Below are positions 35,745 through 47,572 of a stretch of DNA of 64,000 bases, piece by piece (within the stretch, counting starts at the first letter, position 1; each line of letters opens with the position of its first letter). The stretch comes from Prevotella sp. (GTDB lineage: Bacteria; Bacteroidota; Bacteroidia; Bacteroidales; Bacteroidaceae), in contig JAFYZT010000031.1 in NCBI GenBank assembly GCA_017548605.1, positions 24,091-88,090 of the forward strand. Direction: 5' to 3'. The position numbers were made by a program, and so were the translations under genes. The notes under the pieces were generated by a model. The model saw nothing but the letters and a program-made list of their open reading frames with translations, searched no databases and was not told the DNA's origin.

Positions 35745-36000
35745 AAGGTAAAAGGGTAAAAAAGTAAAAAGGGAAATAAAAAAGGAAGTAATAGAAGGAA
35801 GTAATAGAAGGAAGTAAAAGGGGAAGTAAAGCACTTCGTGCAGGACATTAGCCTGAGAATGAGTATTGTCCATTTTAACTCCCATGAGCGAAGCGAATTA
35901 ACTTCAATTTTAACTCCCAATTTAACTCCCAATCACCAGAGTAATGTCCATTTTAACTTCCATGAGCGAAGCGAATTAACTCCCACTTTAACTCCCTATT
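35745..36000. repeat. Intergenic repeat block after umuC
   Basis: AAGTAAAAGGG-type words (35745-35830) are followed by two near-identical copies of ATGAGCGAAGCGAATTAACT flanked by TTTTAACTCCC words (35878-35990). They include the phrase GTAATGTCCATTTTAAC, also seen near 22140. No gene is present. Confidence 0.7.
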
Positions 36001-36025: not shown

Positions 36026-36331
36026 ATGAAAAAAACAATTATCATTGCCGTGACATTGGTCATTGCCTGCATTACTTTCCAGGCATGCGGAAAGAAAGTA
36101 TCTGTTGATAAACTGAAGGCCCAAATCAAGGAAGCCATGCTCGAAGAGGCGCGTGATGAGGGCAGCACTCTCGTCATCACAGAGATGACCCTCAACGAAG
36201 ATGGCAAAGGCAACTACAAAGGCGTTGCCCGTGGCACGAAAAACGACAGTGTGAAAGTAACCTATAACGTTTCTGCTGATGATCAAGGCGACGAATTCGA
36301 CGTCGACTGGGACTTAGCGGGAGACGATTAA
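36026..36331 (+). CDS. Small lipoprotein of unknown function (101 aa)
   Basis: MKKTIIIAVTLVIACITFQA then the lipobox Cys (QACGKK). The mature part is about 80 residues, beginning with a charged helix (VDKLKAQIKEAMLEEARDEG), then beta strands (VITEMTLNEDGKGNYKGVA), and an acidic end (DEFDVDWDLAGDD). It may adopt a small alpha/beta fold like other short Bacteroidales lipoproteins. The function is unknown. It is followed by a hairpin at 36410-36457. Confidence 0.82.
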   Translation: MKKTIIIAVTLVIACITFQACGKKVSVDKLKAQIKEAMLEEARDEGSTLVITEMTLNEDGKGNYKGVARGTKNDSVKVTYNVSADDQGDEFDVDWDLAGDD

Positions 36332-36409
36332 CCGGTAGTTGTTGTTCGTTCCGATTCCCTCGGCAACGCACCGAGGTAACGTTCCTCCTAACTACAAGTA
36401 TTTGAAAGA

Positions 36410-36457
36410 TGAACGATAGACGGGAATGTGCAATACATCCCCGCCCGTCGTTCATTC
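36410..36457. terminator. Candidate bidirectional terminator
   Basis: TGAACGATAGACGGG pairs with CCCGTCGTTCA across a 20-base loop, followed by TTCTTTT. It lies at the left border of the AT-rich island, between the lipoprotein gene and a convergent gene. Confidence 0.6.
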
Positions 36458-36505
36458 TTTTATGAAAAAAGCAAACTTCATGCATTCTTAGTACCATTCT
36501 CCTTC

Positions 36506-37090
36506 TCAACGACGTATTATTTCGACTCTTACTCGTCTTCGAGGTATAGGGTCTCTATCTATCAATTCATTAACAAATTCTCTTACTATCCTAACTTCTT
36601 CGGGAGGTAATATATAAAACTCATGATATTGCCCAGTAAACTCAATCCACATGATAGGCTCACCCTCTTCGTTCTTCTTTATATATATCGTTGCGTATAC
36701 TATCTTGTCTTCAGTTTCAACAAAGAAAAATGAACCATCGTATGTATTCTCCACATAAAGCATTGTTTTCTTTGAATTATAAGTTACAGGACATATTTTG
36801 AAAACGCCTATCTTATATCTTACTTTTTTAGATAATAGTGGTTGGGATTTCTCACCGATGAACCATATCTGTAATACATTTATGTGATCACCACGTCCAT
36901 ATAACGGATTGTTAACGATATGGGGGTGATATTTTTTGTTGTAGAAATAGTTAATCTGCGGACATGGAGTCTTGATTACTTGTATTTTGTAGTTTAACTC
37001 CTGAGCATATCTCAGAAGTTGCGGTCGCTTCCATTCTTCGTAGTAATCAAAAAGAGTCTCAGACTCTTCATCAATAAAGATACTAGTCAT
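36506..37090 (-). CDS. Unknown soluble protein (194 aa), left end of the accessory island
   Basis: The ATG at 37090 (MTSIFIDEESETLFDYYEEW) is preferred to an in-frame codon 13 residues earlier that is preceded by no promoter. There is no signal or membrane segment. It is rich in aromatic residues, with beta-like stretches (VLQIWFIGEKS, TMLYVENTYDGSFFFVETED, YATIYIKKNEEGEPIMWIEF) and a basic C-terminus (IPRRRVRVEIIRR). No family is recognised. Base composition is clearly more AT-rich than the umuDC side, marking the start of transferred DNA. Confidence 0.72.
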   Translation of the reverse strand: MTSIFIDEESETLFDYYEEWKRPQLLRYAQELNYKIQVIKTPCPQINYFYNKKYHPHIVNNPLYGRGDHINVLQIWFIGEKSQPLLSKKVRYKIGVFKICPVTYNSKKTMLYVENTYDGSFFFVETEDKIVYATIYIKKNEEGEPIMWIEFTGQYHEFYILPPEEVRIVREFVNELIDRDPIPRRRVRVEIIRR

Positions 37091-37309
37091 AACTATTTGT
37101 TTTTTAATTGTTAAACAATTCACATCCAATCTGGACCACCGTGGCTAACCGCTCGGTTGGCGTGTCATAACAGACAACTCTACAGATGCTATATTATTCT
37201 AATGAGGATAATTATTTATATAGTCATTAATATGTGACATATACCTTACAAGATAAAATACATAGGAGGAAATAGCTTTATCAAACACACTCTCTCAACT
37301 ATTATTGTG

Positions 37310-37317
37310 CAAATATA
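37310..37317 (-). promoter_or_regulatory. Candidate -7 element TATATTTG
   Basis: CAAATATA on the plus strand, about 220 bases before the start at 37090. The gap 37091-37369 shows no other feature except the inverted TGCAAGGCTTGTAA motif at 37350-37363. Confidence 0.4.
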
Positions 37318-37349
37318 ACACAATAACGCCCTTGTTCCAAATAATTATG

Positions 37350-37363
37350 AATTACAAGCCTTG
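37350..37363 (-). repeat. TGCAAGGCTTGTAA motif, inverted copy
   Basis: On the minus strand TGCAAGGCTTGTAA lies about 10 bases after the stop codon of the 354-residue protein. The same motif, direct, is at 38484-38497 and 41873-41886, with a variant at 43859-43871. Confidence 0.7.
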
Positions 37364-37369
37364 CAGGAC

Positions 37370-38434
37370 CTATGTAAATACTACCAATTCCCTGGGTAAT
37401 GCTATTTTCTTTGCTTCGCCTCTCGCTCCGCGAACAAAATAGTAGCGAGCAAGGCGCTCATCAAACTGACTGATGAAAGCCTCACGGATTCTAGAGCATT
37501 TCTCATTGATGGAATTACTGAGAGGATCTGTAACGTCTTCTATACTTCTTTTGGCTGCAAACCTATTAAAGAACGGCCCTTTTACTTTCCTGTAAATATC
37601 CATCAGTTCCTCACGGTAATCCGGCAGGTAACTGAACATGATACCCTCTGGATGTTTTAAGAACAACAAGAACACGGCTTTAGGTAATGGTGTCATTGTT
37701 ATCTCTATGTTGTTGAAATCAGGCAAGAAGATACGATAATCACTGGTTATGTGAAGCCGGCTTAACTCCACTTTCTCATCCATGATTAGAGTCTTCAGGA
37801 CATAGGCGCCAATACCCTTTTGTTTGAGTTTCTCAATCCTTTCCTTAATCTCTTCCAAGAGTTGTGTTGATTCTCTGTCAAACGTCTCATCTGCAGATAA
37901 AGGGGCGTCTTCTTTCGCAATGCTAAAACGAATGGTGTCATCATCCCTTTCGCAAAACATTATGTTGTGACTATTCTTTTCTATCTCGTTTAAGATATCA
38001 AGAAGAACACCTTTCAATCTAACATCTTCATCAAATGAAGAGGCAGAAATCGATATACCCCGGTACTGACATATCGCTTCTGAATATTGCTCATTCCGGC
38101 AATTCGAATCATAATACAAAAGTGAAGGTGGAATTTTCTCTCGATTTTCCGGATGAACCATGTACTGAAGCAAAAAATTATCATCCAACGCCCCGAGATT
38201 GCCTTCCTTTGCATAAGGCGCTGCATATTGAAGAGAACCGTTTTTGCAAAGGTCTTGTTTCATCAAAGGAATATAACAAAACTCATAACCACAAGAATAA
38301 AAATACTCTCTGATGTCGAGATAATTTTCTTGTATGAGTCGATTCACTTCCTCATCATAAGCTCCCTCTACATAGATAATCTGTCTGGTATCTTGTTCAA
38401 AAGGCAGTTCTTTAAGTCCTAAGGTGAAAAACAT
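37370..38434 (-). CDS. Unknown 354-residue protein with a winged-helix-like C-terminal region
   Basis: The ATG at 38434 (MFFTLGLKELPFEQDTRQII) is chosen; the longer frame reads through the TGCAAGG repeat. It is a soluble protein. The N-terminal half is mixed alpha/beta. A coiled helix (LLEEIKERIEKLKQKGIGAY) lies near 215-235. The last third has the conserved-looking TPLPKAVFLLFLKHPEGI, SYLPDYREELMDIYRKVKG and NSINEKCSRIREAFISQF, ending RYYFVRGARGEAKKIALPRE. I recall similar tails in Bacteroidales proteins of unknown function; the helix pattern and the basic end could form a DNA-binding winged helix, but this is inference. A relic with the same C-terminus lies at 43752-43844, so the family is repeated in this island. 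Confidence 0.75.
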   Translation of the reverse strand: MFFTLGLKELPFEQDTRQIIYVEGAYDEEVNRLIQENYLDIREYFYSCGYEFCYIPLMKQDLCKNGSLQYAAPYAKEGNLGALDDNFLLQYMVHPENREKIPPSLLYYDSNCRNEQYSEAICQYRGISISASSFDEDVRLKGVLLDILNEIEKNSHNIMFCERDDDTIRFSIAKEDAPLSADETFDRESTQLLEEIKERIEKLKQKGIGAYVLKTLIMDEKVELSRLHITSDYRIFLPDFNNIEITMTPLPKAVFLLFLKHPEGIMFSYLPDYREELMDIYRKVKGPFFNRFAAKRSIEDVTDPLSNSINEKCSRIREAFISQFDERLARYYFVRGARGEAKKIALPRELVVFT

Positions 38435-38483
38435 ATACTTCTTTTTGATTATTCTGTTGCGAAAATACAAATTTTTGAAATTC

Positions 38484-38539
38484 TGCAAGGCTTGTAACCC
38501 AAAAATGTTTGGAATTGAATTGTATTTTCTGTTCTTTTG
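38484..38539 (+). promoter_or_regulatory. Promoter module, copy 1 (TGCAAGGCTTGTA + TTTG + TTCTTTTG)
   Basis: The TGCAAGGCTTGTAACCC motif at 38484 is followed by TTTG (38508-38511) and, after 20 bases, TTCTTTTG (38532-38539). It drives the small gene at 38584. Nearly the same sequence stands before 41975. Confidence 0.65.
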
Positions 38540-38583
38540 CAATAATAAAAGAAAAGTCGACAATTTAAAACCAATAGAAAACG

Positions 38584-38871
38584 ATGGAAACTTTGACATA
38601 CGAGCAGAAGATGGCTCGGAGAAGGCATCTCGACTTATTGAAGCGGGAGATAGACGAAGACAATATCAGTCTTGGCTTGCCTCCAGTGAACTGGGTGAAC
38701 AAGACGGGCCTACACGTAGTTTCATTCAGCAGGCACTCCGCAACGTCGAGCACTTCCAGCGAACAAAAGGCAGAAAAGCCTGTCTCGCAGAATCGCTACG
38801 AGGAGTTCAGGGAGAAAGCTATCCAGAGTCCTTCACCGGTAATTGATAATACGACTGAGAAAGACATCTAA
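38584..38871 (+). CDS. Small island protein A, copy 1, with replaced C-terminus (95 aa)
   Basis: Starts METLTYEQKMARRRHLDLLK and shares REIDEDN, PPVNWVNKTG and HVVSFSR with copy 2 at 41975. Identity is high from residue 1 to about 79 (EEFREKAIQ), then stops abruptly: copy 2 continues MLMEKHGYSREQAEATV while this copy reads SPSPVIDNTTEKDI. The break is at about base 38822. It is a charged, soluble, probably partly disordered protein with no known family. The next gene starts 51 bases later on the same strand. Confidence 0.68.
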   Translation: METLTYEQKMARRRHLDLLKREIDEDNISLGLPPVNWVNKTGLHVVSFSRHSATSSTSSEQKAEKPVSQNRYEEFREKAIQSPSPVIDNTTEKDI

Positions 38872-38921
38872 AGGTATACCGTTGATACTGAATGATGTTT
38901 CTATAAACCGCTATAAGAGGA

Positions 38922-39929
38922 ATGAAGAATACAGACCGATTTGAGTTAAAGGTCGCCAATGGAATTGATAAGCCGGCGATATGGTTTAGACTGCATGAAA
39001 GAGAAGTGCTGGTCAATCCTTTTGTGCTCTATAATCTTCTCTGGGATTGTTCCCGGAAAGATTATTTCAGCAGAGGAATAACTGCTAATTTCCAAATTTT
39101 CAAAGATGAAGTGTGTGGCTATTTCCACGATAATGCTATCGGTTTCTATAACATAGAATTTGAAAGGAGTAGCTTCGTTGAATCTGCGTTAAAGGCTCTT
39201 GACAATCTATGTGAAACCACGATTAAAGGGGAATTGTCAGCATATAAAGGATTTGTAACAGCTACTGCCGAACAAATGAAAGTCGGTTTAAATGACTTGA
39301 TTATTCCAAGAAGTTATTATCAAATAAGGGAGGATGAGATAACCGTCGAACGGTTTTCATTCAATTTTGTCGAGCCTTATAATTTCGACTCCCATTTTGA
39401 GATAACGATTGGAAACAGAAAATACGAATCCTATCTCTCCGATTGGTCAAATGACTTTAATCGCATTAGGTTGGAAATAGAGAAATCATTACAGACGTAT
39501 TTTGCAGACTCTGAAATTAATCTTCATTATGAAGACTCCCCCACAATTATTCGACTAAGAAAAAAAGAACTATACGACTCCGATTACTGGCCAACCAACA
39601 AATACATGACGAAAGTCACAATAGTACCAGACGGATTTAGCAAGGCACCAAACATGTTCGGATGGTGTGATTCTCGCCAGCTTATTCGTTCGCTCTATTT
39701 AGGATTACTGTCTATTTGTGTTAATGAAACAGATTGGTTTGATTGCGGATATGATGGTAATTGGGAGGATTTCAGATTGGCGACATATAATAAGTTGCAG
39801 TCATGTGTGATTGAGAATTACATCAAGGGGGTAAAAGAGGATGATTATACTTTCTTTCCCCGTCAGAGAGTCATAGACAGTGTTCCGGCAATGCTGGAAG
39901 ATTATGAAAACCTGAAACAAGATATCTGA
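38922..39929 (+). CDS. Unknown protein (335 aa), first cargo gene
   Basis: A soluble protein starting MKNTDRFELKVANGIDKPAI. No motif is recognised. It appears mixed alpha/beta with many aromatic residues (YNFDSHFEITIGNRKYESYL, NMFGWCDSRQLIRSLYLGLL, NETDWFDCGYDGNWEDFRL). There is no signal peptide. The stop is followed 35 bases later by the RlaP-like nucleotidyltransferase gene, so they probably form an operon with the 34-residue ORF and the 300-residue protein. Function is unknown; the AT-rich base composition matches the island. Confidence 0.72.
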   Translation: MKNTDRFELKVANGIDKPAIWFRLHEREVLVNPFVLYNLLWDCSRKDYFSRGITANFQIFKDEVCGYFHDNAIGFYNIEFERSSFVESALKALDNLCETTIKGELSAYKGFVTATAEQMKVGLNDLIIPRSYYQIREDEITVERFSFNFVEPYNFDSHFEITIGNRKYESYLSDWSNDFNRIRLEIEKSLQTYFADSEINLHYEDSPTIIRLRKKELYDSDYWPTNKYMTKVTIVPDGFSKAPNMFGWCDSRQLIRSLYLGLLSICVNETDWFDCGYDGNWEDFRLATYNKLQSCVIENYIKGVKEDDYTFFPRQRVIDSVPAMLEDYENLKQDI

Positions 39930-39964
39930 AACAGAACATACAAATAACTAATTGAATTGCAACC

Positions 39965-40783
39965 ATGACTGAATACAGAGAAGACTCCCCGAGTCTCTAT
40001 GCTGAGAAAATGGAAATGCTTGCGATACCGGCCCACCTGAGGAGCATTGAACAAGAACATCATGTGAAAATCCTCCTTGCAGTGGAGTCGGGAAGCCGTG
40101 CCTGGGGCTTTGAGTCGGCCAACAGCGACTGGGATGTCCGTTTCATCTATGTCCATAAACCAGAGTGGTATTTCAAGGTTGAGGAACAACGTGATGTCAT
40201 CGAACACATGTATGAAGATGACGTTGACCTGGTTGGTTGGGAATTGGGAAAGGCATTGGCATTATTCCGGAAAAGTAATCCGTCGCTGTTGGAATGGTTC
40301 AATTCGCCGATAGTGTATTATGCCGACGATGATTTTGTCAGGCGAATCCGCGAGGTGGAAAAGGATTATTTCAACCCAGTCAAGTCAATGTATCACTATA
40401 ACCATATGTACAACAAGGACAACGAGCGTTATCTTCAGAAAGAGGATTGCGACATGAAACGTTTCCTCTATTATCTTCGTGGTATATTGGCTTGCAAATG
40501 GATAGAGAGCAACAGCACTTTACCGCCGGTATCATTCAAAGAGCTTCTTGACGCGACTATCGATGATGAGATGATAAAGGCAAAGGTTGATGAACTGCTC
40601 CGTATCAAGAAAAGCGGGGAAGAACATGACATGCAAGTTGTCGATAAAACTCTAGTTGAATATGCTCACCGCTGGGCTGATTATTACAACGAGATGATTG
40701 GCTCTTTCAGGCCGGAACAGCATAAAACCTCTACCGATGCCTTGGACGCAATTCTATATGATATGGTAAAAGAGAATGCATAA
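39965..40783 (+). CDS. RlaP-like nucleotidyltransferase (DNA polymerase beta superfamily)
   Basis: A 272-residue cytoplasmic protein. The polymerase-beta-type motif is seen as VESGSRAWGFESANSDWDVR (about residues 38-57), with the paired acidic residues in SDWDVRFIYV and a third acidic site in DDVDLVGWEL (about 86). The following LALFRKSNPSLLEWFNSPIV and a helical C-terminal half agree with the COG3541/PF10127 family, called RlaP for its link to RNA repair ligases. These enzymes add nucleotides to an unknown acceptor. No RNA ligase is nearby; instead it sits between two unknown proteins, so the target here is open. Confidence 0.85.
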   Translation: MTEYREDSPSLYAEKMEMLAIPAHLRSIEQEHHVKILLAVESGSRAWGFESANSDWDVRFIYVHKPEWYFKVEEQRDVIEHMYEDDVDLVGWELGKALALFRKSNPSLLEWFNSPIVYYADDDFVRRIREVEKDYFNPVKSMYHYNHMYNKDNERYLQKEDCDMKRFLYYLRGILACKWIESNSTLPPVSFKELLDATIDDEMIKAKVDELLRIKKSGEEHDMQVVDKTLVEYAHRWADYYNEMIGSFRPEQHKTSTDALDAILYDMVKENA

Positions 40784-40795
40784 ATAAACGTAAAA

Positions 40796-40900
40796 ATGAA
40801 AGCAAACGCTCAAAGATTATTAGCCGATGTTAAAGCACAATTATTACAATTCAACATTTCAAATAACCGAGCAGATTTCAAATCGATAATAGTATACTAA
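40796..40900 (+). CDS. 34-residue ORF between the nucleotidyltransferase and the 300-aa protein
   Basis: ATG at 40796 reads MKANAQRLLADVKAQLLQFN then 14 more residues to TAA at 40898. It begins 12 bases after the nucleotidyltransferase stop and ends one base before the next start (40902), which suggests translational coupling. The peptide is an amphipathic helix followed by a short polar tail. It may be a real small protein, or a leader that controls the next gene. No homologue is known to me. Confidence 0.4.
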   Translation: MKANAQRLLADVKAQLLQFNISNNRADFKSIIVY

Positions 40901-40901
40901 A

Positions 40902-41804
40902 ATGGAACAGAAAGACAAGAACATAGGAACACTTTTAGGTGACATAGGCTGCGCCTTCCGCAGCAATATCGAAGACCATATAAAAGATTATAAACTGCAG
41001 AAAGGGGATGATGTCGAATGGATTCTTGAGCCATTGGATTCCATCAGTCATTCCGCTGATATCGTGATTGACGCATTTCAATATGGTTCTCATGGTGATT
41101 CGTATTATGAACTGTACTTTCACAACAAGAACGCTGCAAATACATACGTCGCATATGACAAACCCTTGGAAGAACCCCGTATCAGAAAAACGGTCGGGAG
41201 CACTATCAATTTCTCCATATCCAATGAGAAAGAAAAAGTTCCCGAACCGAACACATATGATAAAACAATGGTAATTAATAAAACCCTAAATTTCCATGTC
41301 GCAAAATTTATACCCACTATCTGGAAAGATTTGATAGTTCCTTTTACAGAAAAAGGAATATGGCAGGCTGTGCTGCTTAATGAAACGAAATCATTGTTCC
41401 CAAAGGGTTGGCATGGCAACTATCTTAATAATAAATACGTCTTTTCAAAAGACGACATGCAATTGATTATTAAGCGTAGCAAAAGATTTATTAATGACAT
41501 TACTGAATATGACAAGAAAAGACTGGTAGCCTATTACAAGTCCATGGGCAATTCCAACCCCACCCTAGAGTATGATTTTACTGAATCTGATTATGAGAAA
41601 CTGGCATCTTATCTGGACCGAGAGGATATCATGCCTTCGGTTGAGATTGACGGGGATAAGGCTGTAGCTTCCTTTTGCTATTGGAATGACTGGAGCGGTT
41701 TCTGCCGAAAAATCATACCGGTAGAGCGAAAGGACCAATCGGTAATCATCGGGGAAACTGAAAAAGAGGTTCTTGTGAAATACGTCTGTGGTATACGCTA
41801 TTGA
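40902..41804 (+). CDS. Unknown protein (300 aa), last gene of cargo operon 1
   Basis: Starts MEQKDKNIGTLLGDIGCAFR. Soluble, with no signal peptide. Residues about 40-85 are beta-like (ADIVIDAFQYGSHGDSYYEL), the middle has basic helices (KDDMQLIIKRSKRFINDITE) and the end is beta-like (AVASFCYWNDWSGFCRKIIP). No family is recognised. It is separated by one base from the 34-residue ORF. The region after its stop (41805-41870) leads into promoter module copy 2. Confidence 0.7.
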   Translation: MEQKDKNIGTLLGDIGCAFRSNIEDHIKDYKLQKGDDVEWILEPLDSISHSADIVIDAFQYGSHGDSYYELYFHNKNAANTYVAYDKPLEEPRIRKTVGSTINFSISNEKEKVPEPNTYDKTMVINKTLNFHVAKFIPTIWKDLIVPFTEKGIWQAVLLNETKSLFPKGWHGNYLNNKYVFSKDDMQLIIKRSKRFINDITEYDKKRLVAYYKSMGNSNPTLEYDFTESDYEKLASYLDREDIMPSVEIDGDKAVASFCYWNDWSGFCRKIIPVERKDQSVIIGETEKEVLVKYVCGIRY

Positions 41805-41872
41805 ATAATATTATAACACAAAACGCGACCAACAATTATTCCAAATCGATGGAGACAGGAAAAACGATAGGA

Positions 41873-41929
41873 CTGCAAGGCTTGTATCCCAAAAATGTTT
41901 GGAATTGAAATGTTTTTTCTGTTCTTTTG
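41873..41929 (+). promoter_or_regulatory. Promoter module, copy 2
   Basis: TGCAAGGCTTGTATCCC at 41873, TTTG at 41898-41901 and TTCTTTTG at 41922-41929 (20-base spacing). It is nearly identical over about 55 bases to copy 1 at 38484-38539. Confidence 0.7.
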
Positions 41930-41974
41930 CAAAACAGAAGAAAAGTCGATAATTAATTACAAAAATAGAAGAAG

Positions 41975-42283
41975 ATGAAAACTTTGACGGACGAAGAAAA
42001 GATGGCACGGAGAAGGCATCTCGACTTATTGAAGCGGGAGATAGACGAAGACAATATCAAACGCGGTTGGCCTCCAGTGAACTGGGTGAACAAGACGGGG
42101 CAACACGTAGTCTCATTCAGCAGGCCCTCGAAAACGTCGAGCATTTCCAGCGAACAAAAGGCAGAGAAGCCAATATCGCAGATGAGCAACGAGGAGTTCA
42201 GGGAGAAAGCCATCCAGATGCTGATGGAGAAACACGGGTACAGCAGGGAACAGGCCGAAGCGACAGTGAACAGCCCGTATTAG
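41975..42283 (+). CDS. Small island protein A, copy 2 (102 aa)
   Basis: Starts MKTLTDEEKMARRRHLDLLK. Full form of the protein at 38584: helix, REIDEDN, PPVNWVNKTGQHVVSFSR, a Ser/Lys-rich linker, then NEEFREKAIQMLMEKHGY and EQAEATVNSPY. The C-terminal helix pair (EFREKAIQML...SREQAEATV) looks like a small helical domain. The function is unknown. It is followed 27 bases later by small protein B. Confidence 0.7.
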   Translation: MKTLTDEEKMARRRHLDLLKREIDEDNIKRGWPPVNWVNKTGQHVVSFSRPSKTSSISSEQKAEKPISQMSNEEFREKAIQMLMEKHGYSREQAEATVNSPY

Positions 42284-42310
42284 AACGTGACACCAAGGAA
42301 CAAATAGACG

Positions 42311-42559
42311 ATGAACAGGATACAACAGGCGTTGGAGTGGATAGCGAGTCTCAGCCCAGAGCAACTGAAGGAAGAGATGGAAAGGGCAGAGAGAACCGTG
42401 GAAGACAAGATGCCGAAGAACGCGTGGCTGCTCCCGCCTCGCAAGTGGGCAGAGGAACTGCTTCTGACACTGTGGCTGGAAGACCACTGCTCTGGAGTTC
42501 ACGATAGGCGTGAAGGATGTGAGCAAGGCCCTGGAAGAGTTGGAGAAAGCCGGCTTTAG
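42311..42559 (+). CDS. Small island protein B, copy 1, with altered C-terminus (82 aa)
   Basis: MNRIQQALEWIASLSPEQLK begins a 59-residue helical protein shared with the copy at 45329. After TLWLEDH this copy continues CSGVHDRREGCEQG, while the other ends DHPM. The change falls at about base 42487, where foreign sequence is joined. From there the frame overlaps a remnant of another gene in a different frame. The common part is an amphipathic helix bundle with Arg/Glu-rich helices. No function is recognised. Confidence 0.6.
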   Translation: MNRIQQALEWIASLSPEQLKEEMERAERTVEDKMPKNAWLLPPRKWAEELLLTLWLEDHCSGVHDRREGCEQGPGRVGESRL

Positions 42560-42749
42560 CGACTTCACCATAGACCAGAATGAGAAACTTATCAGACTCG
42601 ATTACTTCATCGACAGGGACAACCCGGAAGCAGATGAAGTCAAGCGGCAAGAGTTTGCCAATAAAAATGGAAAAGAAAAAAGAATTAACCTGGGAGGAAA
42701 AACATCCTTTCGGCAACTTACGTTACTACACTTTTCAAGAAGGTTTTGA
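42492..42749 (+). pseudogene. C-terminal remnant of an unknown gene
   Basis: A protein-like frame without a proper start reads FTIGVKDVSKALEELEKAGF, then DFTIDQNEKLIRLDYFIDRD and NPEADEVKRQEFANKNGKE. It begins exactly where small protein B diverges from its paralogue and overlaps the start of the next gene. It is best explained as the 3' end of a gene cut by recombination; short coupled translation from GTG 42510 cannot be excluded. Confidence 0.5.
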
Positions 42750-43749
42750 AGGAGTTCCCTCTTTGGGGGAAGCAGCGACGAAGTCTGCCCTACGTGTACT
42801 AAAACGTCATCTTGAAGATGAAATGGGTTTTGAACTGTCTGATGAGCAGTTCTTGTCTATCTTTTCCACTGTTATAAACCTAAAACCGGCCCGTCCAATT
42901 GGTGCTTGGTCTTTTCATTATGGCTTTGTGGTTCCAATGAAGAAGTTGCTTCAAGAACAGAATTTGTACTGTGGCGTAAAAGAGATTTTCGATTTCTTTA
43001 ATATACGTAATTGTGATAATAGGCGTTACAATTTTTTACTTCTTCATGTACCTCATTCCTCAAGAACATTTCCCGATAGTTCGATGGTAAGTTTCAATGA
43101 TTTGGATGAAGAAGAACGTCTTCTTATAGATTATTATACAGATGAACTATTTATTCCAACCCAAACTTATGAGAACATTGAAAATATAGTTTTCCCATAT
43201 TGCCGGTTGTACTGCGATGTAGAATGTTTATTTAATGACCCTCTTGAAAAAGAGGGACTTGGAATCTCATATTCCAGGTGGGTGAAAAAAGATAAATATA
43301 GCGAAATACATCGGTCATTCAGTTCATTAACATCTGTCTTTAAAATGTATTCAGATTTTCATACAGAGGCGTCATTAAAATTGTTGAAGGCTAATGGAAC
43401 CGAATTAGTTATTGACTGTCATAGCTTTTCAAACCACCCTAATCTTTTATGCCCCACACCACCGAACATTGATATTTGCATTGGATATAACAACGATGGA
43501 ACACACCCGTACAGTGTTACGCTTGGGAATATCATTCAGTATTTCAAATCATGTGGCTACAAGGTTGGCATCAATGAGCCTTTCTCCAATAGTAAGACGT
43601 TCTCTGTCCCTGTAAAATATCATTCTGTTAAGATAGAAGTGAACAAGAGACTATATATGAACGAGGATACTCTCGAAAAGACAGAAGGGTTCGAGAAACT
43701 TAAACAAGATATTCAGTCTCTCTATAATATTATTTTAAAGACAAAGTGA
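42667..43749 (+). CDS. N-formylglutamate amidohydrolase-like protein with extra N-terminal domain
   Basis: A 360-residue protein; ATG at 42667 (MEKKKELTWEEKHPFGNLRY). The C-terminal 235 residues resemble the N-formylglutamate amidohydrolase family: LLHVPHSSRTFPDSS (about 125, a metal ligand His), DYYTDELF, ADVE-like YCDVECLFNDP, and LVIDCHSFSNHP (about 270, Asp/His ligands). Known members hydrolyse N-formylglutamate or act on cell-wall peptides. The N-terminal 120 residues (FELSDEQFLSIFSTVINLKP, PIGAWSFHYGFVVPMKKLL) match nothing I know. Because it sits as cargo in a recombining island, a role in small-molecule or peptide hydrolysis for defence or competition is possible but unproven. Confidence 0.75.
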   Translation: MEKKKELTWEEKHPFGNLRYYTFQEGFEGVPSLGEAATKSALRVLKRHLEDEMGFELSDEQFLSIFSTVINLKPARPIGAWSFHYGFVVPMKKLLQEQNLYCGVKEIFDFFNIRNCDNRRYNFLLLHVPHSSRTFPDSSMVSFNDLDEEERLLIDYYTDELFIPTQTYENIENIVFPYCRLYCDVECLFNDPLEKEGLGISYSRWVKKDKYSEIHRSFSSLTSVFKMYSDFHTEASLKLLKANGTELVIDCHSFSNHPNLLCPTPPNIDICIGYNNDGTHPYSVTLGNIIQYFKSCGYKVGINEPFSNSKTFSVPVKYHSVKIEVNKRLYMNEDTLEKTEGFEKLKQDIQSLYNIILKTK

Positions 43750-43751
43750 CA

Positions 43752-43844
43752 TTCCATCTTGCCAAAAATTACTACGTTAGCGGCAAAGGCGGTGAACCAA
43801 AGCGTATTCTTCTCGATAGAACAAAGATTCTCTGGGATGACTGA
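43752..43844 (+). pseudogene. Relic of the C-terminus of the 354-residue protein family
   Basis: Straight after the amidohydrolase stop a frame reads FHLAKNYYVSGKGGEPKRIL then LDRTKILWDD and TGA. It aligns with the end of the protein at 37370 (RLARYYFVRGARGEAKKIAL): LA, Y, V, G, GE, K, I, L and R keep their places. As with the intact gene, the TGCAAGG motif follows within about 15 bases of the stop. The rest of the gene is absent. Confidence 0.6.
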
Positions 43845-43858
43845 AGAAAATCGCCATA

Positions 43859-43916
43859 GTTGCAAGGGTTGTTTCTCGTTTTTGTTTGGATGTAATAGAG
43901 TTTTCGTGTATTTTTG
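43859..43916 (+). promoter_or_regulatory. Promoter module, copy 3 (diverged)
   Basis: TGCAAGGGTTGT at 43860, TTTG at 43885-43888 and TATTTTTG at 43909-43916 with 20-base spacing. Same layout as copies 1 and 2, 23 bases before the start at 43939. Confidence 0.65.
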
Positions 43917-43938
43917 TGTCTACATATGAAAGAGCGTA

Positions 43939-45147
43939 ATGAAACAAAAAGAACATATAAAAGAAAATTGTTTGAATGAATCATCTTGTTTGGTCAACGG
44001 AGAGGTCAAGGTCGATGATTCTGATACACCAGCCTTTGGGGCCAATCGTAGTTTGTTCGAGCGTGAATCGAACAATAAGTTGACTTCAGAGGAGGAACTT
44101 GACAGGATATACATGGAACTCAAAGACAGGTTCTATAAATTGTCCTGTGCATTGGAGAAAGATCAACCTTCTATGACTGGTAATTACGACCTCTCCTGTA
44201 AGACGAAACCGACAAAGGATGAATTGGTAGACGCTCTCAACAAATGGAACTGCGCCATTATAACCGCTTTTCGCGGTTCTGGTAAATTGTCTGAGGAAGC
44301 TAACCTGAAACGAAACGAGGAACTTAAGACCAAGATGCTTGAAATGGGATTGTTGTTCCGTCCTGTGGATGGATATTATTTGGGTATAGACGAGAATCAT
44401 ACGAGCATTAAAAGGATTCCAGTCAACGAATACAGTTTTTTCGTTACCAATACGAATGACGATGGCGCATTGAGAATGGACGAAGCAGCGAGAAAAGACT
44501 TCTTTACGAAATTGTTTCGACTGGCGGAGCATTACGAGCAGGATAGCTTCTTGTTCACTTTTCCTGTGGCCAACGGCGTTGCATTCAGGGTGGCTACAAA
44601 TAGTAACGGCCGCTCGTATTTCCGAAATGATATTAAGTATGCAGGACGACTATACACCAATATTGAAAACATAGGTGCATGGACGGGCTGTGCTAATGAT
44701 GGGAAAATTGCATTTATGTTGAAAGGAATGATTCTGAAAAGAGTATATGAACATGAGTTGGTATGGATAGGAGAAGGAGATATTTTCGATATTGAGCATT
44801 ATAACCCTGATAGTCTGGTCATTATCCATGATAATAAACATGCAGAATTAAATGGTTCTTGTGCAGGTTATAAAAAAGACCATGATAATTTGTATGAATA
44901 TGTATTTGTCAATGAAGCCATCTCAGAAGAAGATATACGAATAACTGTAATAAAAATGCTGGAAACTCTGCCCAACAATAGTCGAACCATAGGTTTCCAT
45001 TGCTCGGCATCGTTAGATGGCTCATATATGGAAGGAGCAAAAGTTGCATATGATACTATTCTGAAATGGGTTGAGAAAAACTGGGAAAGGGTGTCTAAAA
45101 TAGTAATTGTTGACATCTATGGTGATTATTGTAAGATTCAGAATTAA
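43939..45147 (+). CDS. Unknown protein (402 aa) with DUF3293-like middle and macro-like tail
   Basis: A soluble protein starting MKQKEHIKENCLNESSCLVN. Residues about 100-180 (WNCAIITAFRGSGKLSEEAN, LKTKMLEMGLLFRPVDGYYL, EYSFFVTNTN) resemble the DUF3293 type found in phage and bacterial proteins. Residues about 190-300 are beta-rich (YEQDSFLFTFPVANGVAFRV). The last 75 residues (NEAISEEDIRITVIKMLETL, then AYDTILKWVEKNWERVSKIV and IVDIYGDYCKI) look like the end of a macro (ADP-ribose-binding) domain, although the usual N-terminal half of that fold is not obvious. The function is unknown. Its own promoter (module copy 3) suggests an independent cassette. Confidence 0.68.
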   Translation: MKQKEHIKENCLNESSCLVNGEVKVDDSDTPAFGANRSLFERESNNKLTSEEELDRIYMELKDRFYKLSCALEKDQPSMTGNYDLSCKTKPTKDELVDALNKWNCAIITAFRGSGKLSEEANLKRNEELKTKMLEMGLLFRPVDGYYLGIDENHTSIKRIPVNEYSFFVTNTNDDGALRMDEAARKDFFTKLFRLAEHYEQDSFLFTFPVANGVAFRVATNSNGRSYFRNDIKYAGRLYTNIENIGAWTGCANDGKIAFMLKGMILKRVYEHELVWIGEGDIFDIEHYNPDSLVIIHDNKHAELNGSCAGYKKDHDNLYEYVFVNEAISEEDIRITVIKMLETLPNNSRTIGFHCSASLDGSYMEGAKVAYDTILKWVEKNWERVSKIVIVDIYGDYCKIQN

Positions 45148-45180
45148 AACTATTAATGGATATGGTTTTTCTCATGAAAA

Positions 45181-45235
45181 ACCTTGATCCTCTGGAATAA
45201 CTGAAGAAAAATGCCCTAATTACAAGGCTCTATGC
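45181..45235 (+). repeat. Micro-relic of the cassette end
   Basis: TCCTCTGGAATAACTGAAG and AATGCCCTAATTACAAGG repeat the sequence at 43829-43866 (TCTCTGGGATGACTGAAG, ATCGCCATAGTTGCAAGG). It encodes only the last residues (ILWNN) of the 354-residue family tail. Confidence 0.55.
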
Positions 45236-45328
45236 ACTACACGACTGCCGTATCACTCAAAATGTCGGATGAGCCGAAGCGACAGTGAACAGCCCGTATT
45301 AAAACGTGAAACAAAAAAATATAAAAAC

Positions 45329-45514
45329 ATGAACAGGATACAACAGGCTTTGGAGTGGATAGCGAGTCTCAGCCCAGAGCAACTGAAAGCAGAAATGAAA
45401 AGGGCAGAAAGAACCGTGGAAGACAAGATGCCGGAGGAAGCGTGGCTGCTCCCGCCAAGGAAGTGGGCAGAGGTGCTTCTGCTGACGCTGTGGCTGGAAG
45501 ACCACCCCATGTGA
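45329..45514 (+). CDS. Small island protein B, copy 2 (61 aa)
   Basis: MNRIQQALEWIASLSPEQLK continues AEMKRAERTVEDKMPEEAWL and LPPRKWAEVLLLTLWLEDHPM. It is about 90 percent identical to the first 59 residues of the protein at 42311. The similarity starts upstream of the start codon, at about 45275 (CCGAAGCGACAGTGAACAGC), which in copy 1 is the end of protein A. So a piece carrying the end of A plus B was duplicated without the body of A. A 41-residue frame (45539-45664, MPKNKDVAVRPYDKTDTKAI) follows; whether it is used is unknown. Confidence 0.6.
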   Translation: MNRIQQALEWIASLSPEQLKAEMKRAERTVEDKMPEEAWLLPPRKWAEVLLLTLWLEDHPM

Positions 45515-45631
45515 GTGTAACTGATAAAGTAATAGAAAATGCCAAAAAATAAAGACGTGGCAGTACGTCCGTATGACAAGACAGACACAAAAGCAATTTA
45601 TGGGTGTAGTTACTATTGTATGCAAATAGTA

Positions 45632-45661
45632 CCGCCCACCATCAGTATTGAAGGTGGGCGG
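45632..45661. terminator. Hairpin at the right end of the island
   Basis: CCGCCCACC and GGTGGGCGG form a perfect 9-base stem with a 12-base loop, between small protein B copy 2 and the convergent vWA gene. It could terminate both. Confidence 0.75.
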
Positions 45662-45679
45662 TAATTGTTGAAGCTGTAA

Positions 45680-46336
45680 TCACGCATTGGGGGTCTCTTC
45701 CTTGTTTTCGTCCTTTTCTTCTTCGAAGAAATGGCCGGTAGGCATACTAATATTATGCTCCACGCAAAGAATGTAGTGTTCACGAGCCTTATGTTCGCGT
45801 CTGAACATGGTATCGGTTCCTTCCTCGCTTTGGTCCCAGCTCATATGCTCATCAATACTCATCGAATGGGCCATACCCTCTACATCAAGGTTATCGGTAC
45901 CGATGAGCGTGAAGGTCCACTTCTGTCCTTTCAGCTTGTCGATGAGGTTCTTCACCATCTTCAACGTCCACTCCTGAGAACAGTTTTCCATGCCGTCGGT
46001 GATGATGGTCACCAGCACATTATCGCCTTTCCTCACCTGTGCGTTGAGTTTCGACACCGTCTTTCCGATGGCATCATAGAGCGGTGTGGCGGCACAGGGG
46101 TTATAGGACTTCCATTCCAGGTTATGGGTGTCACGAGCCAAGGCATCATTGTAGTGCCATTTCATGTGTCCGCTGTCAAAGGTTACCAAGGTGACATGCT
46201 GCTCGGTATCAGGATACTTCTCCTGCATGGAGCGTACAGTAGAAAGCGTCTCGTTCATTCCCGAAAACGCCTGCTTGCGGATGACTGACATGGAACCACT
46301 CTCGTCAACAATAATCAAATTAAATACTCTTTTCAT
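45680..46336 (-). CDS. von Willebrand factor A domain protein
   Basis: A 218-residue cytoplasmic protein made almost entirely of one vWA domain. The MIDAS site is complete: IIVDESGSMS at residues 8-17, a Thr near AATPLYDAIG (about 90), and IITDGMENCS (about 115). Such domains bind ligands through a divalent metal. The C-terminus is acidic (EEEKDENKEETPNA). It is divergent from the sigma/macro-like fusion gene with 138 bases between the starts, so the two may be regulated together. GC content is back to the genome level, so this gene lies outside the AT-rich island. Confidence 0.85.
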   Translation of the reverse strand: MKRVFNLIIVDESGSMSVIRKQAFSGMNETLSTVRSMQEKYPDTEQHVTLVTFDSGHMKWHYNDALARDTHNLEWKSYNPCAATPLYDAIGKTVSKLNAQVRKGDNVLVTIITDGMENCSQEWTLKMVKNLIDKLKGQKWTFTLIGTDNLDVEGMAHSMSIDEHMSWDQSEEGTDTMFRREHKAREHYILCVEHNISMPTGHFFEEEKDENKEETPNA

Positions 46337-46445: not shown

Positions 46446-46474
46446 CCGTGAAAAAAACTAAACACCAACAAATC

Positions 46475-47572
46475 ATGTTAAGCGACAGTATCATCATTGA
46501 AGGCTTCCGCCGTGGAGACGAATGGTTCTTCCGGCATTATTTCTATGAATACTGCCGGACTGCCTATCATATCTTCGACAAGCGATATGAACTCAGCAAG
46601 AAAGAAAACCTCGACTTCATGTCGCTGGCGCATCAATATGCCATCTACCTGATGGAACACGACTGGAAACCGTTGGAAGACCGTTCGCCCAACGTGTCAC
46701 TCCGCACATGGATGATTAACGGCTTCCGCTATATCGTGCTCGATGCGCTGAAATGGTACAAGCGCGAATACGGTACGCTGACCTTCGAAGATTATCTCAA
46801 ATCGTTCGACACCAGCCAGGACCTGCGTCTGAACTTCAACAAACTCATCCTCGACATCTGCGATGCCGCCAAACTCGACCGCATCTCTCGAACCATCCTG
46901 GTGATGTTGCTGGTGGAAGGCTACAAGAGCAAGGACATTGCCGCAAAGATAGGCATCACGCCCTCGGCTGTTTCTCAACGCTTCCAGACACTGAAAAACA
47001 AATATATCATCCCCTATTTCAAGGAGTATTTCGACATGGACTTCGACACGCAGGAGGTGATGGAGGAAGAGGTAATGGAGAAAAGAGATTACTGCGATGT
47101 CTTACCTACTTTCCCTGCCAGTATATCCCACGACGAAAGTACGTCAGCCTTGGATGTTATTCATCATATCGACTATCAAAGAAAAAAATATATACCTATG
47201 GAAAAGAAACGCACCACACCAGAATTTATACACACGTTGGCACCGGGCGAGATCTTCGTCTTCGGCAGCAACCTCAGAGGCATGCACGGCGGAGGAGCCG
47301 CCTATGCCGCCTATCGTAAGTTCGGCGCCATCATGGGACAGGGCGTGGGTTTGCAGGGACAGAGCTACGCCATCCCCACCATGCAGGGCGGCGTGGAGAC
47401 CATCAAGCCCTACGTGGACGAGTTCATCGAGTTTGCGAAGGAGCACCCGGAACTAACCTTCCTGGTGACACGGATAGGCTGTGGCATTGCGGGCTTTAGC
47501 GACAGCGAGATTTCACCGCTCTTCGCCAAAGCCCACGAAGTAGAGAATATCATATTGCCCGAGGGGTGGTAA
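46475..47572 (+). CDS. Fusion of a sigma-70-like protein and an A1S_2505/macro-like domain
   Basis: A 365-residue protein (start MLSDSIIIEGFRRGDEWFFR). Residues about 1-110 resemble sigma region 2. Residues about 140-195 are a helix-turn-helix of the region 4 type (ISRTILVMLLVEGYKSKDIA then KIGITPSAVSQRFQTLK). After a 50-residue linker, residues about 242-365 form the domain called A1S_2505 phage non-structural protein: EIFVFGSNLRGMHGGGAAYA, YAIPTMQGGVETI and VTRIGCGIAGFSD, with the Gly-rich loop of macro-like ADP-ribose binders. An internal ATG at 47198 (MEKKRTTPEFIHTLAPGEIF) matches the usual start of the stand-alone domain, so a second, shorter product of 124 residues is possible. Regulation by an ADP-ribose-like ligand is inference. 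Confidence 0.8.
   Translation: MLSDSIIIEGFRRGDEWFFRHYFYEYCRTAYHIFDKRYELSKKENLDFMSLAHQYAIYLMEHDWKPLEDRSPNVSLRTWMINGFRYIVLDALKWYKREYGTLTFEDYLKSFDTSQDLRLNFNKLILDICDAAKLDRISRTILVMLLVEGYKSKDIAAKIGITPSAVSQRFQTLKNKYIIPYFKEYFDMDFDTQEVMEEEVMEKRDYCDVLPTFPASISHDESTSALDVIHHIDYQRKKYIPMEKKRTTPEFIHTLAPGEIFVFGSNLRGMHGGGAAYAAYRKFGAIMGQGVGLQGQSYAIPTMQGGVETIKPYVDEFIEFAKEHPELTFLVTRIGCGIAGFSDSEISPLFAKAHEVENIILPEGW

Follow-up and report, generated by a model that had tools for sequence, protein, structure and literature searches.

The island and its predicted regulator

This work concerns an accessory island of about 9 kb (positions 36332..45665) in a stretch of 64,000 nt, hereafter the window, taken from a 3.25-Mb draft genome of Prevotella sp. 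that is 92% complete. The sequence-only reading of the window described the island as an AT-rich mosaic of repeated small genes and promoter parts with unlike cargo. Its central elements are P354, a predicted one-component regulator of 354 aa (37370..38434, minus strand), and a short inverted repeat (dyad) that precedes several promoters. Around them lie the genes of a 194-aa protein, of two copies each of the small proteins A and B, of a 335-aa protein, an RlaP-like nucleotidyltransferase, a 300-aa protein, an N-formylglutamate amidohydrolase-like protein, and a 402-aa protein.

The C-terminal domain (CTD) of P354 (residues 224-354; 37373..37765, minus strand) is predicted to form an OmpR/PhoB-like winged helix, with N-terminal strands, a helical core that includes the recognition helix, and a C-terminal hairpin wing (mean predicted local distance difference test score, pLDDT, of the P354 model 76.2). 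The best matches of the predicted CTD fold include BaeR, SaeR, CosR, GlnR, CadC, PhoB and ToxR, and the predicted recognition helix is nearly invariant across the family. None of 25 CTD family members matched the curated OmpR/PhoB-type family in Pfam at E<=0.1, so that we call the CTD OmpR/PhoB-like by predicted fold and do not file it as a member; the best alignment to a sequence from the PDB (E 0.088) was not to an OmpR-type protein. The predicted fold is shared with OmpR/PhoB-type winged helices, including those of the one-component proteins ToxR and CadC, but the P354 family differs from this type in that no receiver domain was found in its proteins, no Pfam family is matched (for P354 itself none at E<=1, hence no WYL match), the winged helix is C-terminal, and the putative site is a short inverted repeat.

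The CTD is widespread in the genus under differing N-terminal parts, which belong to A1S_2505/DUF1810 or DUF6804 or are without known family. Relatives of P354, the search for which had been proposed on the basis of the sequence, occur in 34 of 100 genomes, its own included (genes in the relatives are our own greedy calls of open reading frames, ORFs). Our scans of GTDB contigs, plasmids and viral contigs detect only close relatives, and near records may be missing from them; within this scope the plasmid collection contains relatives from Prevotella sp. E2-28 (pE2-28) and Segatella hominis, and no relative was found in phage records. No description of the CTD family or of its site was found in the titles and abstracts listed by our searches of the openly accessible literature (subscription papers lay outside the scope), and the family is seemingly undescribed.

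At least three copies of one promoter layout had been noticed in the island. We find four, in each of which a dyad (TGCAAGGCTTGTAA or a variant of it) starts 48 nt before a Bacteroidetes-type -7 box, as well as a decayed dyad at 45220. Dyad P0 (TGCAAGGCTTGTAA; 37352..37365, minus strand) lies 4 nt past the stop codon of the 354-aa gene and faces the 194-aa gene, with its -7 element TATATTTG at 37310..37317 on the same strand. Dyad P1 (38484..38497, no strand assigned) lies between the divergent genes of P354 and A1, 48 nt before the -7 element of A1 (38532..38539, plus strand) and, on the strand that encodes P354, 30 nt before a TATTTTCG box. Dyad P2 (TGCAAGGCTTGTAT; 41874..41887) precedes A2 with its -7 element at 41922..41929, and dyad P3 (TGCAAGGGTTGTTT, with one mismatch in the core; 43861..43874) precedes the 402-aa gene with the -7 element TATTTTTG at 43909..43916, all on the plus strand. 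P1 and P2 are near-identical and share the -7 element TTCTTTTG, which departs from TAnnTTTG, while P0 and P3 resemble them mainly in dyad and spacing. The sequence TGCAAGGCTTGTA is present without mismatch three times in the window, always within the island; when up to three mismatches are allowed, the 14 occurrences do not exceed the 16.3 expected. An invertible segment, considered for the inverted repeats I1 and I2, was dropped, as their arms are accounted for by the dyads and promoter parts of promoters that diverge.

We consider it likely that P354 is a member of a family of one-component regulators and that the island is a local regulon under its dyad operator, reshuffled by duplication and deletion.

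Linkage of the dyad to the predicted regulator family

The same dyad recurs near relatives of P354 in other genomes. In the CTD loci examined first, 40 of 50 distances from the dyad to TAnnTT[TC]G were 41/42, 48/49 or 57-60 nt. For the genus comparison, with one genome per species, we used a strict dyad (YGCAAGSCTTGYRA) and a core dyad, RCAAGNCTTGY; the loci from which the dyad had been derived overlap the first genome set. After merging of palindromic dyads listed on both strands, the strict dyad was found at 58 sites, 33 in the first set of 36 genus genomes and 25 in the second set of 24 (G036-G059), which was scanned after the first. In the first set 14 of 17 sites within 20 kb of a CTD match were phased with a -7 box, compared to 1 of 16 elsewhere (Fisher p 1.3e-5; since related loci are not independent samples, this and the other p-values are guides only), and random positions show a -7 box at the phased distances in 154 of 9900 cases. 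With the core dyad and a looser rule for the -7 box, a phased site was present in all 37 CTD loci, including two (L131, L132) chosen through dyad hits, and 52 of 58 dyads were phased; the 171,621 bases of control loci contain no core dyad. Strict dyads counted on both strands outnumber the reversed pattern 63 to 5 in the 60 genus genomes and 16 to 12 in 40 genomes of other genera, so that the excess is a matter of the genus. Three dyad-like repeats in genome G008 (TGCAAGGCTTGTGAAGGTGTGAAGG...; loci L113, L114, L115) have no -7 box at 30-75 nt and apparently belong to an unrelated repeat family.

Both plasmids with P354 relatives carry the site. On pE2-28 the core lies 11 nt after the stop codon of the CTD gene, with the -7 box at 48 nt; when one mismatch is allowed, the core is hit 42 times, and two more -7 boxes appear, at 64 and 69 nt. 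On the Segatella hominis plasmid the core lies between divergent ftsZ and CTD genes, with -7 boxes at 48 and 60 nt.

The form of the site also follows the form of the regulator. Among 41 CTD genes, 15 are labelled ftsZ-linked by their neighbour gene and 17 are assigned to class Z by a motif in the wing. When each dyad site is given the class of the nearest CTD gene, the FtsZ-linked subclass shows the form GCAAG-N-CTTGC in 12 of 17 sites and a main spacing of 41 nt, whereas the other subclass shows it in 4 of 35 sites and has a main spacing of 48 nt (p 3.3e-5; 15 sites at 41 nt, 28 at 48 nt). Such co-variation of site letters and spacing with the CTD subclass is the pattern expected of the protein that reads the site, and we infer that the CTD binds the dyad.

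FtsZ-like genes stand beside CTD genes at L168:7385-9489, L142, L143, L148 and L151, with a phased dyad in between, one of these pairs being that of the Segatella hominis plasmid; one FtsZ-like neighbour is FtsZ by Pfam. Possibly, such a gene is an FtsZ paralogue with its own regulator.

In the second genome set all 13 sites near a CTD match and none of the 12 distant ones were phased (p 1.9e-7), but 12 of these 13 near sites lay in loci already used for choosing the allowed phases; wholly unseen at that choice were the 12 distant sites, one near site (that of G037) and the two plasmids. Some observations weigh against a CTD that reads the dyad. The gene behind a dyad is in several cases not the CTD gene, and in genome G004 a phased dyad stands before a kinase-LRR gene on a contig without a CTD match. 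These dyads would be accommodated if an unlinked factor read the site and the CTD genes were merely among its targets. We regard this alternative as unlikely, though it is the strongest of those considered: phased strict dyads occur in 9 of 14 genomes with a CTD match and in 0 of 22 without one in the first set, the corresponding figures for the second being 11 of 16 and 0 of 8, and the dyad varies in letters and spacing with the CTD subclass. When phase is ignored, the split between genomes is weak (10/14 versus 5/22 in the first set, 12/16 versus 4/8 in the second).

Gene-end junctions and regulator relics

The position of P0 immediately behind the P354 gene is a recurrent one. Of the 26 CTD genes that are not ftsZ-linked, 16 have a dyad core with no more than one mismatch at the stop codon, in the range from -13 to +37 nt, with the -7 box at 48 nt in 14 cases, at 41 nt in one and not found in one; none of the 15 ftsZ-linked genes has such a stop-codon dyad. 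The next called gene is co-directional in 14 of these 16 junctions (the exceptions are L046 and L051). The next genes are mostly unrelated to each other, with only two homologous sets at E<=1e-3, and include those of DnaB-like and SLOG proteins.

In the island the same junction appears between P354 and the 194-aa gene and, in relic form, before the 402-aa gene. There, 43752..43844 (plus strand) holds the last 30 codons and the stop of a second CTD gene, followed after 16 nt by dyad P3. Two relics of the 3' end of the 354-aa gene had been postulated. Relics indeed exist, but the first stems from a sister gene: its best match is a homologue in another species (67% over 27 aa, E 5e-13; genome G009, locus L036), and at E<=1 its matches do not include P354. 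This homologue, too, has a dyad behind its stop, at a distance of about 19 nt, and the gene that comes next is a different one. The second relic is a mere 42-nt piece, 81% like the end of the first, which together with the dyad remnant TTACAAGGCTCTAT at 45220 makes up a decayed junction (45186..45233, plus strand; P4). The proposed reuse of parts with different cargo is thereby borne out, since the junction of gene end, dyad and promoter recurs in other species before mostly unrelated genes, and the relic junction of sister regulator 3' end, dyad and 402-aa gene is its clearest support.

Small proteins A and B and the repeat structure

The mosaic character of the island is confirmed by three kinds of repeats: A (38573-38827 and 41964-42218; 255 nt, 87% identity), B (42311-42487 and 45329-45505; 177 nt, 90%) and the promoter part (38483-38542 and 41873-41932; 60 nt, 95%). 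No further copies of them were found elsewhere in the 92%-complete genome. Both pairs of small genes that had been described are thus present, but only A2 (41975..42283, plus strand; 102 aa) is a complete A. In A1 (38584..38871, plus strand) the likeness to A ends after about codon 81 and a foreign 3' end follows. B1 (conserved part 42311..42487) and B2 (45329..45514), both on the plus strand, are 92% identical over 59 residues; for A1 and A2 the identity is 82% over 82 residues.

Most nucleotide differences concern the third position of codons (7/8/15 at positions 1/2/3 in A, 4/2/11 in B), and the ratio of synonymous to nonsynonymous altered codons is 10:14 in the frame of A and 9:5 in that of B, as opposed to 4:17 and 1:14 in the sole other open frame (the third frame has stops). 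This suggests that both A and B were translated; A is under mild constraint. Convincing matches of A and B, which were to be followed through other Bacteroidales, are confined to their own genome among 299 genus genomes. The remaining matches, with E-values of 0.006 (one genome), 0.010 and 0.034 (two genomes), were taken as chance, and no relative of protein A was found in the plasmid, GTDB contig and IMG/VR scans, which detect only close relatives and may lack near records.

Just before B2 lie the last nine codons and the stop of a further A sequence (45273..45302, plus strand), and this piece and A1 jointly lack 35 nt of A (42219-42253). They look like split pieces of one A, as though an A-B pair had been opened. 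In the simplest account this was done by a block reaching from 38828 to 45272, which itself carries the complete A2-B1, but duplications and deletions may also have followed another order. The base composition agrees in part with the AT-rich block of the sequence-only reading: the GC content of the island is 0.398, against 0.514 in the left and 0.506 in the right flank, but A2-B1 (0.524) is flank-like, and the window has other AT-rich stretches at 29-33 and 62-64 kb.

The island as a proposed local regulon

We propose that P354 is built of a variable N-terminal sensor part and the OmpR/PhoB-like DNA-binding CTD, and that the CTD family would read RCAAGNCTTGY just upstream of Bacteroidetes-type promoters at a fixed phase, the dyad mostly starting 41, 48 or about 60 nt ahead of the -7 box. 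Because the site lies just upstream of the -33 region, the CTD would act mainly as an activator. Dyad P1, for instance, takes the position usual for an activator site with respect to A1. P354 itself is probably self-repressed, because P1, at 30 nt from the -7 box on the P354 strand, coincides with where the -33 box of the P354 promoter would lie. The regulon of the island would then comprise P354 and the four 48-nt dyad promoters, which stand before the 194-aa gene, A1 with the 335-aa, RlaP-like and 300-aa genes, A2-B1 with the amidohydrolase-like gene, and the 402-aa gene. As to the presumed origin of the modules, a part consisting of promoter, A and B may have been duplicated, one A-B pair may have received an insertion of new cargo, and a second CTD regulator may have lost its body by deletion, with its 3' end and operator left behind.

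Relics, the truncated A1, the decayed P4 and the lack of a dyad promoter of its own in B2 would also be expected of a decaying patchwork of horizontally acquired genes without common control, in which the repeats are debris of duplication. We find this improbable, as the copies of A and B remained in frame with changes mostly at third positions, and the four promoters keep the 48-nt phase despite the divergence of P0 and P3 in other respects. As the repeated layout is tied to the CTD of P354, retention for function explains part of the repetition. Less probable still, and in our opinion very unlikely, is that the dyad is an attachment or recombination site that joins cassettes in the manner of an integron. 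It does stand at junctions behind which the genes vary, and in the island it marks boundaries between genes; however, its distance to the -7 box is fixed, also at ftsZ-type loci, the likeness of P0 and P3 to P1 and P2 is mainly one of dyad and spacing, and no integrase or recombinase family was found in ten proteins of the island region and ten further proteins of the window.

It is conceivable, although we would give it somewhat less than an even chance, that the local regulon is one case of a plug-in socket used in Prevotella as well as in some other Bacteroidales. A conserved junction made up of the regulator's 3' end, the dyad and the promoter would control whichever gene comes to lie downstream (DnaB-like, SLOG, vWA, or proteins without known family). 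The sensor half would be swapped (A1S_2505/DUF1810, DUF6804 membrane and other types), one subclass would be tied to FtsZ-like genes, the ensemble would constitute a switchable stress or defence regulon, and the island would be a species-specific expansion of it.

Prevotella is a common genus of the gut and mouth, and to our knowledge the control of its accessory systems has been little studied. If our interpretation is correct, accessory genes throughout this large genus are coordinated by a single regulator family whose operator can be searched for. The operator would then offer a direct and testable means of finding co-regulated genes whose function is not known, FtsZ-like and ADP-ribose-related ones among them, without guessing from gene names, and the mosaic island would keep one control circuit while its cargo changes.

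Relation to known systems

Neighbours of CTD genes elsewhere, picked by eye, include DarT, ADP-ribosylglycohydrolase, DUF6939, DnaB-like helicase, SLOG, TerY-like vWA and ZorB-like MotB proteins, and two ADP-ribosylglycohydrolase genes lie near the CTD gene of pE2-28. These neighbours suggest a stress or conflict role of the CTD regulators, and the island regulon, too, may serve stress or defence. The DarT, ADP-ribosylglycohydrolase, TerY-like and ZorB-like neighbours make the defence or competition role that the sequence-only reading had suggested for the island somewhat more plausible. The neighbourhood of TerY-like vWA, DarT, ADP-ribosylglycohydrolase and DUF1810 genes is reminiscent of Ter/TerY and DarT-type ADP-ribosylation conflict systems; however, none of those families was matched in the island proteins, and the vWA gene lies just outside the island. 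In the annotation of pE2-28 (L169, L171, L172) we also noted TerY/PP2C/kinase genes, three DUF1810 and three ADP-ribosylglycohydrolase genes, a restriction system, and two genes of WYL proteins.

P354 resembles the BrxR/CapW WYL regulators of phage-defence islands, in the available part of their description (PMC9122601), in being a regulator within an accessory island with an inverted-repeat site and a family found beside many systems. BrxR is a repressor, whereas P354 has no WYL match and a different predicted DNA-binding fold, and the position of its site suggests an activator. The least probable of all alternatives is an array of orphan immunity genes like the rAID arrays of Bacteroidales, in which, according to the part of PMC12247911 available, accessory genes likewise combine a conserved intergenic motif with homologous small genes: in the island the genes are not all co-oriented, the motif is a phased promoter element, the cargo includes enzymes, no immunity-named family appears among the Pfam matches at E<=1, and no tyrosine recombinase was found among the 20 window proteins scanned, the ten beyond the island region lying between 25.5 and 46.3 kb.

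Cargo genes and surroundings

The island genes lie on both strands and include those of 335-402-aa proteins. Two of the cargo identities suggested from the sequence were verified, namely the RlaP-like nucleotidyltransferase (39965..40783, plus strand; PF10127, E 1.7e-79) and the N-formylglutamate amidohydrolase-like protein (42580..43749, plus strand; PF05013, E 4.2e-22). The 194-aa protein (36506..37090, minus strand), the first behind dyad P0, matched no family above the cut-off in Pfam, NCBIfam or PADLOC and has no relative in 199 other genus genomes (200 with its own). The 335-aa protein (38922..39929, plus strand) likewise matched no family above the cut-off in these three collections and no relative in the GTDB contig scan, and ten window proteins gave no PADLOC match below E 0.013. 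The 300-aa protein (40902..41804, plus strand) has matches in 8 of 200 genomes, including its own, the seven others being weak, and its C-terminal part resembles a 768-aa protein of a CTD locus in another species (L050; 24.7% over 166 aa, E 2.4e-10).

For the 402-aa protein (43939..45147, plus strand) the macro-like tail that had been proposed was not confirmed: the structure model, built from two sequences, is unreliable (mean pLDDT 42), and the fold search with Foldseek returned a mixed, uninformative list. In the 200 genomes the protein has a single relative of nearly full length (35%), and five more of them contain short weak matches; its closest relative, at L061, adjoins an ORF that we take to resemble a restriction-modification protein.

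Beyond the right end of the island the vWA gene (45680-46336) is divergent from a gene (46448-47572) that encodes a sigma-70-like protein fused to an A1S_2505-type domain (NF049995, E 3e-44). The two genes are adjacent in four relatives (L053, L055-L057) that have neither the island nor a UmuC match, so that no empty site can be defined. To the left of the island, at 35861-36000, two 62-nt direct repeats, 90% identical and 78 nt apart, precede a small lipoprotein-like gene at 36026.

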